Assembly (NCBI GenBank): GCA_902595195.1
Contig: CACJPC010000002.1
Span: forward strand, 1-42,269
Length of the DNA: 42,269 nt
Source: an uncultured Candidatus Actinomarina sp.
GTDB taxonomy: Bacteria; Actinomycetota; Acidimicrobiia; Actinomarinales; Actinomarinaceae
Reading direction: 5' to 3'
This document shows, piece after piece, positions 4,615 to 8,995 of this stretch (position 1 is the first letter of the stretch; each line of letters starts with the position of its first letter). Below the pieces are notes generated by a model that was given only the letters and a program-made list of their open reading frames with translations, did no database searches and was not told where the DNA came from. A program made the translations under genes and the position numbers.

Positions 4615-5274
4615 ATGTTTGATTCACTTGAGATAATAAAAGAAAACAGTCATGAAGATGCATCTTTAAGACTTCAAGAGTTGATTGGCAAGTTTATACA
4701 GGATAATGAAAAATTTAGTTTAGGGTTGTCAGGCGGAAGTACGCCAAGATTTTTCTATCAAAACTTTGCAAATACTTATCAAGAAAATAGTGATATTTCT
4801 TTATGGACAATAGATGATAGACATGTTCCCATAAACGATGAAAATTCTAATCAAAGAATGATAAATGAGATATTTAGTAAAACAAAAATGAACATTTTAG
4901 AATTACAATTTAATGAAAATCCAAACATATCAGCAGACGAATATTCAAAATTAGTATTATCAAAAATTCAAAATTTTAATAGCGCAATTCTTGGAGTTGG
5001 TGATGATGGTCACATAGCTTCTCTATTTCCAAATACAACTGCTTTGAATAATATATCAACTGGATTTGTTGCAAATGAAGTAAATATATTAAGCAAATGG
5101 AGAATTACATCAACTTTTGAATTACTTTCTAATATTGAAAATGTATATCTCTTAGTAACTGGCGAAAACAAGTCCGATATTTTGAAAGAAATTGGTAAGG
5201 ATAACGGATTACCTGTAAATCGCTTAATAAAACATCGAAAAAAAACTGTCCTTGTAACGGACCAAAAAATATAA
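4615..5274 (+). CDS. pgl: 6-phosphogluconolactonase
   Basis: This enzyme hydrolyses 6-phosphogluconolactone in the oxidative pentose phosphate pathway. The protein of 219 aa is close to the family length, about 230. Visible motifs are LGLSGGSTPRFFY (phosphate loop), WTIDDRHVP, the signature LGVGDDGHIASLFP, and RITSTFELL. It stands alone, with no zwf or gnd in the window. No Shine-Dalgarno is evident before the ATG, so it may be read from a leaderless transcript. The stop at 5274 is followed at once by the promoter of the next gene. Confidence 0.9.
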   Translation: MFDSLEIIKENSHEDASLRLQELIGKFIQDNEKFSLGLSGGSTPRFFYQNFANTYQENSDISLWTIDDRHVPINDENSNQRMINEIFSKTKMNILELQFNENPNISADEYSKLVLSKIQNFNSAILGVGDDGHIASLFPNTTALNNISTGFVANEVNILSKWRITSTFELLSNIENVYLLVTGENKSDILKEIGKDNGLPVNRLIKHRKKTVLVTDQKI

Positions 5275-5280
5275 ACTCAA

Positions 5281-5286
5281 TATAAT
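5281..5286 (+). promoter_or_regulatory. -10 box of the DMT-transporter leader
   Basis: There is a perfect TATAAT immediately after the pgl stop. A start site 7 nt downstream, near 5293, would be the first base of the outer stem of the leader RNA. TTGTAA at 5252-5257 is too far away (23 bp) to be a convincing -35. Confidence 0.5.
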
Positions 5287-5292
5287 TAAATC

Positions 5293-5381
5293 AGAGTCGC
5301 CTTTGTGTCAGTTTGAACCACTACACTAATCCTTCTACCCTGTTGGATGGTGGCTCTATTGTTATTAATAAGGATTTTTCA
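5293..5381 (+). ncRNA. Candidate riboswitch-like structured 5' leader of the DMT transporter gene
   Basis: The RNA folds by hand into a three-way junction. P1 pairs AGAGTCGCC (5293-5301) with GGTGGCTCT (5349-5357), 9 of 9 pairs including two G-U. P2 pairs GTGTcAGT (5305-5312, one bulged C) with ACTACAC (5320-5326) around the loop TTGAACC. P3 pairs ATCC (5329-5332) with GGAT (5345-5348). The segment AATCCTT (5328-5334), which contains the P3 5' strand, is exactly complementary to AAGGATT (5370-5376), the Shine-Dalgarno of the TTG start at 5382. P3 and ribosome-site masking therefore exclude each other, as in a translational ON switch. It matches no riboswitch class I can recall, and the ligand is unknown. 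Confidence 0.45.
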
Positions 5382-6236
5382 TTGAAAATTGTAAATTATC
5401 TACAAATGCTTTTGACCTCAGCACTTTGGGGATCGTCTTTTTTAATGATGAAATATGCATTAGTTGACTTAAACCCTTTTCAGATTTCCTTCTACAGAAT
5501 TCTTATTGGTATGATTTTTATAAATATTATTTTTATAAAAAAGACTCCTTTCCCAAAAAATACTCATAAGAATTTAGCATCAATTGGGATGCTTTGGATG
5601 GCTTTACCTTTTTATTTATTTGCAAAGGCTGAAGAAACTATTTCCTCTAGCTTAGCTGGACTAATTAATGGCTCTACTCCAATATTTATTGGATTAATTG
5701 CTGTATTAATTTATAAAGAAAATATAACAAGAATGCAAAAGTTTTATTTGGGTCTAGGGTTTGTTGGAATTTATCTTGTTTCCTTTGAGTTGAATAACTT
5801 TTTAAATGATTTGAACATCGGTGCTTTGTTAGCTTTAATTGCATCAATTAGCTATGGATTTGCTGCGAATATTGTACAACCTTTAATAAAAGATTATGGA
5901 GCAATTCCTACATTAAAAATTTCTTTAAGATATGCAACGTTGTTTTCATTTATTATGTTGTTGCCTAATTCAGATATTGTATTACCTAGTATTTCAGATT
6001 CATTATTCCCAATCTTATTATTAGGGATTGGTAGTACTGGAATTGCTTTTGTATCCTTTTACAATTTAATTAATGATGTGGGAGCAGTGGCAGGATCAAT
6101 TACTGTTTACATAATTCCGATTTTTTCCACAATATTTGGTTTTGTTTTTCTTAACGAGTACACAAATAATATTCAACTTATTGGTATCGTTATTGTCGTA
6201 TTATCCGCTTATAGGTTTTCAAAAATTAAAAATTAA
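5382..6236 (+). CDS. EamA/DMT-superfamily transporter
   Basis: This is an integral membrane protein with about ten hydrophobic segments and two EamA repeats, 284 aa from the chosen start. The first helix carries ALWGSSFLMMKYAL, the hallmark of the drug/metabolite transporter family. The second repeat begins near GALLALIASISYGFAA, and the last helices end with IPIFSTIFGFVFLNE. Members export metabolites or amino acids, and the substrate here is unknown. The frame is open from a TTG at 5313. I chose the TTG at 5382 because AAGGA lies 7 nt upstream and the protein then begins just before helix 1, whereas the earlier start would translate the folded leader. The TAA overlaps the convergent thioesterase stop. 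Confidence 0.75.
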   Translation: MKIVNYLQMLLTSALWGSSFLMMKYALVDLNPFQISFYRILIGMIFINIIFIKKTPFPKNTHKNLASIGMLWMALPFYLFAKAEETISSSLAGLINGSTPIFIGLIAVLIYKENITRMQKFYLGLGFVGIYLVSFELNNFLNDLNIGALLALIASISYGFAANIVQPLIKDYGAIPTLKISLRYATLFSFIMLLPNSDIVLPSISDSLFPILLLGIGSTGIAFVSFYNLINDVGAVAGSITVYIIPIFSTIFGFVFLNEYTNNIQLIGIVIVVLSAYRFSKIKN

Positions 6237-6731: not shown

Positions 6732-7559
6732 TTATGTGCCTTTTGGATGCCACACAGTTTTTGTCTCTAAGAATGACAGAATTGAAGAAATACCATCTAT
6801 AGAAGGCATATTTACAATTCTTTTAACTGAATTTGAAGCATTTTCTTGAATTTTTGTGAGCATTTCATTAGGAATTTCTTTACAAATTGAAATTAAATTA
6901 ATTTCAACATGTTTACTGACATCTTCAAAAACATTTTCAAACTGACCAGAAAGTATATTTAATGAGCCAGGAGGAAAGTCGGAATTATTTATATCTTCAG
7001 CAAACTTAAGTGCAATAATTGATGATTCCTCAGAAAATGAAATAACAGAACATCCAACAGTTAAAGGTTGAATAATGCTATTTAATAATGAAGTTAATGA
7101 ATTGTCGTTGCTATTTAAAGAAAAAACTACCCCAATTGGATTTTGATGTGAAATATTAAAGTATTCACCGTTTACTGGATTTAAATTACCTGATATTTGC
7201 TCCCACTTATCAGCTAAGCCTGCATACCAAACAATATTTTCAATTGCAGTTTCTACATCTTTCTTTGCCTGATTTTTTGTACTGCCACATAAAACTAAAA
7301 GATCAACATAGCTGTCTTTATTTCCTTCTATCATCTCAGATAAGCGATACAAAATTTGAGTCTTTGTATAAGGGCTAATCTCACTCCACTTTTCAAATCC
7401 TACTTTAGATGAAGTTACAGCATCCCTTATATCTTTTTTTGAGGTCAATGGAACCTCAAAAGAATCATTTTTTAAATTTAAGGTAAACGTTTTGCCAGAC
7501 TCAGATCTTACATATTTACCTCCAACATAATTTTTATAAGTTTTTTTTATTTCAATCAT
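6732..7559 (-). CDS. Truncated, non-catalytic aldehyde dehydrogenase domain (ALDH16 C-terminal-domain type)
   Basis: The 275-aa protein aligns with the NAD-binding part of aldehyde dehydrogenases: YKNYVGGKYVRSESGKTF, GFEKWSEISPYTKTQIL, YAGLADKWEQISGN and NPIGVVFSL. The WNxP, E-LGGK and catalytic-Cys segments are absent, and the protein ends with KTVWHPKG where half of an ALDH would be missing. It starts inside the upstream ALDH gene (ATGA overlap). A complete ALDH followed by a shorter catalytically empty one is the domain order of ALDH16, so this is probably a structural partner rather than a decayed duplicate. It has no internal stop and is coding-like throughout. Confidence 0.75.
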   Translation of the reverse strand: MIEIKKTYKNYVGGKYVRSESGKTFTLNLKNDSFEVPLTSKKDIRDAVTSSKVGFEKWSEISPYTKTQILYRLSEMIEGNKDSYVDLLVLCGSTKNQAKKDVETAIENIVWYAGLADKWEQISGNLNPVNGEYFNISHQNPIGVVFSLNSNDNSLTSLLNSIIQPLTVGCSVISFSEESSIIALKFAEDINNSDFPPGSLNILSGQFENVFEDVSKHVEINLISICKEIPNEMLTKIQENASNSVKRIVNMPSIDGISSILSFLETKTVWHPKGT

Positions 7560-8995
7560 GATTCTGCCTTTAAATATGAGAGAAGACCTTGCCTACCTCC
7601 CTCTCTTCCAAATCCAGATTCCTTATATCCACCAAATGGAGATGATGGATCAAACTTGTTAAAAGTATTTGCCCAGACTACTCCAGCTTGAAGTCTGTCA
7701 GCAGTCCATAGTATTTTTGAACCTTTCTCAGTCCATACTCCAGCAGATAATCCATACTCTGTATTATTTGCTATCTCAACTGCCTCTTGAGGAGTTCTAA
7801 ATGTAAGAGTTGTGAGTACAGGACCGAATATCTCTTCCCTTGCGATTGAATATGATGGCTGGACATCTGTAAATAAAGTTGGTTTAAACCAAAACCCATT
7901 ACCAGGAAGTTCACATTCAGTTTGAAAAATCTTTCCGCCGTCTGAAACTCCTTCATTTACAAGTCCCTCAATTTTATTTAATTGTTCTTTTGAATTGATA
8001 GCACCAATATCTGTATTTTTATCAAGTGGATTACCTACTCTTAATGTTTGCATCCTTTTTTCTAATTTTGCAACAAATTCATCATGAATTGACTCTTGAA
8101 GTAACAACCTGCTACCTGCACAACAAACATGTCCTTGGTTAAAGAATATACCATTAACAACACCTTCAACAGCTTGATCTATTGCTGCATCTTCGTACAC
8201 AATATTTGCTGCTTTTCCTCCAAGTTCTAGAGTTAAACCTACATCTCGTCCTGCTAAAGATTTTTGAATTAATTTTCCAACTTGAGTTGATCCAGTAAAT
8301 GCAATTTTATTAATATCTTTATGGTTTACGATTAAAGAACCTGTAGTGCCATCGCCTGTAATAATATTTACTACACCATCTGGCAAACCAGCTTGTTCGC
8401 AAAGTTCTGCAAATAATAAAGCAGTTAACGAAGTAGTTTCTGCAGGCTTTAAAACTACAGTATTGCCAGTAGCTAAAGCTGGTGCAACCTTCCATGCCAA
8501 CATTAATAATGGGAAGTTCCATGGAATTATTTGCCCAACAACTCCATGTGGTTTTAAACTTTTAGCACCCCAAGATAAATCTATCTTGTCAGCCCAGCCA
8601 GCAAAGTAAAAGAAATTTGCAGCTACCTGAGGCAAATCAAAATCTCTTGATTCTTTTATAGGCTTTCCTCCGTCCATTGACTCTAAAACTGCAAACTCTC
8701 GAGATCTTTCTTGAATTAATCTCGCAAGCTTAAAAAGATGTTTTGATCTCTCATGGGGCGACGTATTTGACCACTTTTCAAAGCCTAGTTGCGCAGATTG
8801 GACAGCATTATCAACATCTTTCTCATTTGAAATTACTATTTTAGAAAGAACCTCTTCAGTTGATGGAGAGATTGTGTTTATATATTTTTTGCTATTTTGT
8901 TGTTGGAATTTTCCATTTATAAAATTTTGATATTTGTCTTTAATATTCACAATTTCTTGTGACTCAACTGACTCTGAATATTCCCAATTTACCAT
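7556..8995 (-). CDS. Aldehyde dehydrogenase (catalytic partner)
   Basis: This is a full-length NAD(P)-dependent aldehyde dehydrogenase of 479 aa. Visible motifs are IIPWNFPLLM (Asn160 for oxyanion binding), KPAETTSLTALLFAEL, FTGSTQVG (Rossmann turn), LELGGK with general base Glu257, FNQGHVCCAGSR with nucleophile Cys291, and EEIFGPVLTTLTF. It lies 5 bp after deoC and overlaps the pseudo-ALDH gene by 4 nt. The context suggests oxidation of the acetaldehyde that DeoC releases from deoxyribose 5-phosphate. The substrate is inferred, not read from residues. Confidence 0.9.
   Translation of the reverse strand: MVNWEYSESVESQEIVNIKDKYQNFINGKFQQQNSKKYINTISPSTEEVLSKIVISNEKDVDNAVQSAQLGFEKWSNTSPHERSKHLFKLARLIQERSREFAVLESMDGGKPIKESRDFDLPQVAANFFYFAGWADKIDLSWGAKSLKPHGVVGQIIPWNFPLLMLAWKVAPALATGNTVVLKPAETTSLTALLFAELCEQAGLPDGVVNIITGDGTTGSLIVNHKDINKIAFTGSTQVGKLIQKSLAGRDVGLTLELGGKAANIVYEDAAIDQAVEGVVNGIFFNQGHVCCAGSRLLLQESIHDEFVAKLEKRMQTLRVGNPLDKNTDIGAINSKEQLNKIEGLVNEGVSDGGKIFQTECELPGNGFWFKPTLFTDVQPSYSIAREEIFGPVLTTLTFRTPQEAVEIANNTEYGLSAGVWTEKGSKILWTADRLQAGVVWANTFNKFDPSSPFGGYKESGFGREGGRQGLLSYLKAES

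Follow-up and report, generated by a model that had tools for sequence, protein, structure and literature searches.

The eamA gene of Candidatus Actinomarina, which encodes a transporter of the DMT/EamA type, is preceded by a real, lineage-specific orphan leader RNA of riboswitch-like character. The element is almost certainly a structured RNA with a regulatory role in cis. We assign a probability of about 0.6 to the reading that it forms the 5′ end of the eamA mRNA and acts on this mRNA as a compact riboswitch-like aptamer. A preliminary description of the same DNA had proposed a three-way junction that controls the exporter gene by masking its Shine-Dalgarno sequence; the RNA withstood our analysis, the masking did not. 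Transporter genes are typical targets of riboswitches.

Location and architecture of the element

The window (the whole stretch of 42,269 nucleotides analyzed here) comes from contig C2 of a Ca. Actinomarina genome assembled to 0.93 Mb. The features in and around the element are as follows:

4615 to 5274, plus strand: pgl, a 6-phosphogluconolactonase-like gene (PF01182), upstream neighbor of the element
5281 to 5286, plus strand: –10-like box TATAAT, a TAnnnT motif ending 6–8 nt before the GAG of P1
5293 to 5357, plus strand: the whole conserved element, a three-way-junction RNA of 65 nt, directly before eamA
5293 to 5301, plus strand: 5′ strand of P1, AGAGTCGCC, pairing with 5349–5357
5302 to 5304, plus strand: junction J1/2, TTT (UUU in the RNA), invariant in the leader alignment
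5305 to 5326, plus strand: hairpin P2, GUGU-c-AGU / ACU-ACAC with loop YUGAACC, its stem invariant in 62 aligned copies (nine distinct cores)
5327 to 5328, plus strand: junction J2/3, TA
5329 to 5348, plus strand: hairpin P3 with the invariant loop UACCCU, here of the AUCC-UU-C type, in the other lineage of the CAAC/GUUG type
5349 to 5357, plus strand: 3′ strand of P1, GGTGGCTCT, pairing with 5293–5301
5358 to 5381, plus strand: unconserved tail from the end of P1 to the first start codon, 12–32 nt long in the 21 leaders examined
5370 to 5376, plus strand: Shine-Dalgarno sequence AAGGATT, a 7-nt complement of 5328–5334 only in the close relatives of the window
5382 to 6236, plus strand: eamA, DMT/EamA transporter of 284 amino acids with start codon TTG 5382 (PF00892, E = 6.7e-40)

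The positions and the structure originally given for the TATAAT box, the junction and the TTG start are right, and the three-way junction is also the minimum-energy fold. P1 comprises nine base pairs, G-U and U-G included. In the window, P2 is formed by GTGT-c-AGT (5305–5312) and ACTACAC (5320–5326), giving 7 bp with C5309 bulged and a TTGAACC loop. P3 consists of ATCC (5329–5332) paired with GGAT (5345–5348) plus a C5335-G5342 pair across a UU/UU internal loop, and it carries the loop TACCCT (5336–5341); J3/1 is absent. The heptamer AATCCTT (5328–5334) had been presented as the 5′ side of P3, which holds only for its core: the P3 strand covers 5329–5332, and the heptamer adds one junction base and two bases of the internal loop.

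The best NCBIfam match of the EamA protein is TIGR00950, under the cut-off of that model. In genome G031, the open frame of eamA starts exactly at the position matching TTG 5382. In each of the 31 genomes measured, 19–26 nt separate the pgl stop codon from the P1 GAG, and the gene neighborhood of eamA gives no hint at a ligand. No tRNA was found in the window. On the minus strand at 6732–8995, the window contains two overlapping frames of 275 and 479 amino acids that resemble tandem aldehyde dehydrogenases, as named by eye from the translation.

Conserved protein coding from TTG 5313, which the preliminary description had named among the observations that would speak against its reading, is excluded, and an N-terminal extension of EamA was rejected with it: in 61 of the 62 loci, a stop codon interrupts the eamA frame after P1 and before the start codon of eamA, the window being the sole open one, and the element measures 62, 63 or 65 nt from GAG to CTC.

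The –10-like box is located where it would start a transcript at P1, and this arrangement recurs. All 27 distinct upstream sequences, among them the seven that are less than 70% identical, have a TAnnnT sequence that ends 6–8 nt ahead of the P1 GAG, although the pattern is a lax one in AT-rich DNA. From this placement, transcription of eamA is predicted to begin with the first base of P1 or beside it, and it is this predicted start that puts the element into the leader. The position of the box makes a transcript start downstream of 5357 unlikely. A consensus scan of the plus strand found no full –35/–10 promoter of the sigma-70 type.

Conservation, structure and distribution

With a covariance model built from five variants of the element, we identified a single strong copy (at least 72 bits) per genome in 32 of the 42 genomes of the genus, in each case beside eamA as judged by coordinates. 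All 62 translated element loci encode an EamA-like protein immediately downstream in the same orientation. The model was built on alignment A4; the MAFFT alignments A2 and A3 shifted either the ACAC strand or the 3′ terminus and were set aside. When 17 distinct leaders were aligned, all 44 invariant columns fell within the element and none in the flanks. The tie between a conserved, structured leader RNA and a DMT/EamA gene, drawn originally from a single sequence, is borne out. Two additional matches of 15–16 bits (E = 0.8–1; G038 and G018) were taken as chance, and a repeat or mobile element was ruled out, since each genome has one strong copy.

If one pair of near-copies is left out, identity between five A-type representatives is 94–100% in the element, compared with 28–45% at fourfold sites of eamA and 31–62% in the 3′ flanks. 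Synonymous sites of eamA are near saturation while the element has hardly changed. Across the deep split between A and B types, element copies are 65–80% identical (in a MAFFT alignment with one strand slightly out of place) and the EamA proteins 46–52%.

Single-sequence folding alone is weak evidence. The three-way junction (66 nt) reaches –20.9 kcal/mol with a z score of –3.1, and two of 200 shuffles were equally good; for the whole 97-nt leader, the z score is only –1.6, with ten equally good shuffles out of 200. It is the comparison across species that puts the structure far beyond chance. P1 shows standard pairs in 161 of 162 cells (nine pairs in 18 distinct arms), including compensatory changes at 5293/5357 (A-U, G-C, U-A) and at 5297/5353 (U-A, U-G, C-G). 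The test for covariation in P1 to P3 suggested earlier thus came out in favor of P1; P2 is without any variation, and P3, which takes the form AUCC-UU-C/G-UU-GGAU or CAAC/GUUG under the same loop, has two of its five model pairs unpaired in the A type. A formal covariation test is only suggestive: 26 of 500 shuffles reached the observed score, all slid structures scored lower, and changes on both sides occur in one of 18 model pairs. Covariation is thin because only nine distinct cores exist, all from one genus.

Seven genomes carry eamA without the element. They form a single clade (clade C) in the EamA tree, with support of 100/99 and, under midpoint rooting, on the A side. In all seven (L020–L026), TAnnnT lies 6–8 nt before the ATG, so that eamA looks leaderless here, judging from this spacing. 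Since clade C lacks the element and apparently also a leader, the element would seem to be the only reason for having a leader. With the midpoint root, one loss together with a switch to a leaderless transcript would be the simplest history, because both A and B carry the element. Three further genomes without the element (G017, G034 and G025) probably lack the whole region. Their joint absence of element and eamA was dropped as evidence for linkage, as pgl was not found there either; the contig of G025 begins inside eamA.

Six of the 31 element-bearing genomes in the EamA tree combine an A-type element with a B-type eamA, indicating that the element behaves as a module. The upstream flanks of these six resemble those of A-type genomes, which suggests that the eamA coding region was replaced while the element stayed in place.

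Beyond the genus, we scanned 84,980 species with a pattern strict on both loops, which was the only search applied to phyla other than Actinomycetota, and obtained matches exclusively in Actinomarina-like contigs. Among 33 public stretches that contain the element, 28 are named Candidatus Actinomarina, Actinomarinales or OCS155 (NCBI places Ca. Actinomarina in the Actinomycetota, Ca. Actinomarinales). Two MAGs labeled Woeseiaceae (L086) and Flavobacteriales (L077) also have it. L086 includes an eamA close to that of the window and L077 is cut off within the element; both are probably misbinned Actinomarina-like contigs in contaminated bins. Model scans, run with stricter Infernal filters that lose weak matches, gave four weak hits (E = 0.026–0.055) in 353 genomes of the class outside the genus and one (E = 0.0076) in 396 genomes of the phylum, both about chance level; the latter (L118) is rich in GC and has neither of the conserved loops. 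The viral collection contained no element, nor did 20 stretches upstream of distant eamA homologues from other genera; the best score among these stretches and the clade C loci was 10 bits. The sole credible Rfam match in the 20 stretches was a glycine riboswitch on the strand opposite eamA, and the idea of using a riboswitch before such homologues as a clue to the ligand was dropped.

Proposed regulatory function and competing explanations

Masking of the Shine-Dalgarno sequence was the switch originally put forward: AATCCTT would sequester AAGGATT unless a ligand holds P3, giving an ON switch. The sequence match as such is correct. In three leaders (L057, L058 and L086), those of the window and two close relatives, AATCCTT complements AAGGATT without a mismatch (shuffle p = 0.003–0.006). 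However, none of the other 18 of the 21 leaders reaches the 7-nt match; they offer 2–6 nt, and in L056, L059 and L072 AATCCTT persists although there is no Shine-Dalgarno sequence. Some match to any Shine-Dalgarno sequence is to be expected, because UCCUU is the general anti-Shine-Dalgarno sequence. Moreover, P1 and the masking helix are mutually exclusive, and P1 is predicted to dominate. We therefore consider this switch very improbable.

The region behind P1 offers no conserved substitute. All 21 leaders examined have P1 ending shortly before the first start codon, but masking, a U-run and a short upstream frame are each seen in some lineages only. At least five consecutive T residues follow within 12 nt of P1 in ten of the 16 leaders with an A-type element, and in seven of these 16 the T-richness exceeds that of tail shuffles (p < 0.05). 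P1 plus a U-run could constitute an intrinsic terminator and the element a trans-acting small RNA of about 75 nt, or else a terminator-embedded aptamer as in HMP-PP riboswitches. Such a run is missing from all five B-type leaders and from the window, and a terminator scan was blank at P1 in the window, its loop limit of 3–8 nt being unable to report P1. The invariable position beside eamA on the same strand likewise argues against a small RNA, and we hold this explanation to be improbable. Ahead of B-type eamA genes there is a short open frame, such as MLSFKACEF, which runs into the GTG start of eamA and overlaps it. By eye, this nine-codon frame is seen in L038, L042, L044, L041 and L076 and ends early in L039; it goes with B-type eamA and is also found in genomes with A-type elements.

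We regard the element as an aptamer that acts in cis through a platform differing between lineages, and control of translation near the start codon is most likely their common denominator. In the mechanism we propose, transcription would start at P1, as the –10-like box suggests, and the RNA would fold into the three-way junction, with the loops YUGAACC and UACCCU and the junction UUU fixed as a binding pocket would be. Binding of a ligand would then alter the stability of this knob and thereby the access of ribosomes to eamA; where an A-type leader has a U-run directly behind P1, premature termination could be an alternative output. The likely ligand would be the compound exported by EamA or a linked metabolite. 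It would probably turn the exporter on, a direction we favor because of exporter logic. That a small molecule is sensed at all appears rather probable to us. A slightly better than even chance is given to the full proposal, an orphan riboswitch class confined to Ca. Actinomarina that recognizes the substrate of, or a signal for, the DMT exporter through a 65-nt junction that begins with the first transcribed nucleotide and is coupled to exchangeable platforms.

Two further explanations would do without a ligand. P1 begins at the predicted +1 position and is predicted to form without ligand at a probability of at least 0.70 in 20 of the 21 leaders; the unliganded RNA would thus already contain it, and therefore no alternative state is evident. 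A stable +1 stem that protects the 5′ end of the mRNA or passively enhances translation, without sensing, would account for this. Yet a passive stem needs no 44 fixed positions including both loops and the junction, next to flanks and a tail that drift freely, making this role decidedly unlikely. The invariance of P2 in sequence as well as pairing throughout the 62 copies would fit recognition by a sequence-specific protein acting as a repressor or activator of eamA translation, comparable to the situation in attenuation leaders or those of ribosomal-protein genes. But this would require a separate regulator, the EamA transporter itself being no RNA-binding protein, and a protein devoted to one strong copy per genome would be costly in a genome of about 1 Mb. 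In addition, the element is overall about as conserved as a genuine riboswitch of these genomes, the one for TPP (see below). Hence, a protein-binding leader seems unlikely, and we prefer the riboswitch-like aptamer.

The element is found in an ultra-small, uncultured marine genus, before a transporter gene, and the identity of the ligand would hint at what this EamA exporter handles. With its short core of 65 nt and its fixed loops, it is well suited to direct experimental study.

Comparison with known RNA classes

The view that the element belongs to no known class is upheld. Rfam 15 (4227 families) gave no match in the window at gathering score, and a search of six leaders at E up to 10 returned six matches, none of them over the element. 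No relatives by sequence were found in the PDB at E = 0.001, and searches of the open-licence PMC literature brought up no title on this RNA or on any Actinomarina riboswitch. Rare riboswitch classes restricted to a single lineage are thought to be numerous and hard to find.

The purine and 2′-deoxyguanosine riboswitches are also three-way junctions of about 65 nt, closed by P1 and bearing two hairpins. In purine riboswitches, the loops L2 and L3 are complementary and kiss. The element shares the general layout, but Rfam does not match it to these families and its J1/2 is merely UUU. By inspection, the loops YUGAACC and UACCCU contain no 3-nt complement and thus no kissing interaction, and a purine riboswitch was rejected.

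Another likeness lies in the regulated gene. The ykkC-2d RNAs are described as orphan candidate riboswitches of unknown ligand that control EamA transporter genes (PMC7266159). The element resembles this subtype in both respects, but no ykkC family model recognizes it. The HMP-PP (thiS) riboswitch, described as a very compact, terminator-embedded aptamer (PMC6478431), is similar in its compactness, and many A-type leaders have a U-run after the closing stem. This run is not conserved in the element, however, being absent from the window and the B-type leaders examined; the associated gene is another one and Rfam gives no match.

As a yardstick we used the TPP riboswitch, which was found in 32 of the 41 Actinomarina genomes searched, in four of the 41 over the gathering cut-off of Rfam. 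In the genome of the window, it is located on the minus strand (L136 1501–1596; G000:C1:148573–148668) about 30 nt before a start codon as judged by eye, a position similar to that of the element. From the translation, it precedes a frame resembling a sodium:solute symporter, and a second EamA-like frame on its other side is transcribed away from it. The two RNAs differ in sequence and architecture, and RF00059 does not match the element. Nevertheless, they occur in most of the same genomes and are about equally conserved. Over 153 pairs from 18 genomes, mean identity is 0.83 for the element and 0.80 for the TPP aptamers, with the element higher in 85 pairs. Compared with the genome of the window, A-type copies of the element are equal to or closer than the TPP aptamers, whereas B-type copies (0.70–0.80 versus 0.74–0.81 for TPP) are equal or less alike. 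The element is therefore under riboswitch-like constraint, neither clearly weaker nor clearly stronger than that on the TPP riboswitch.
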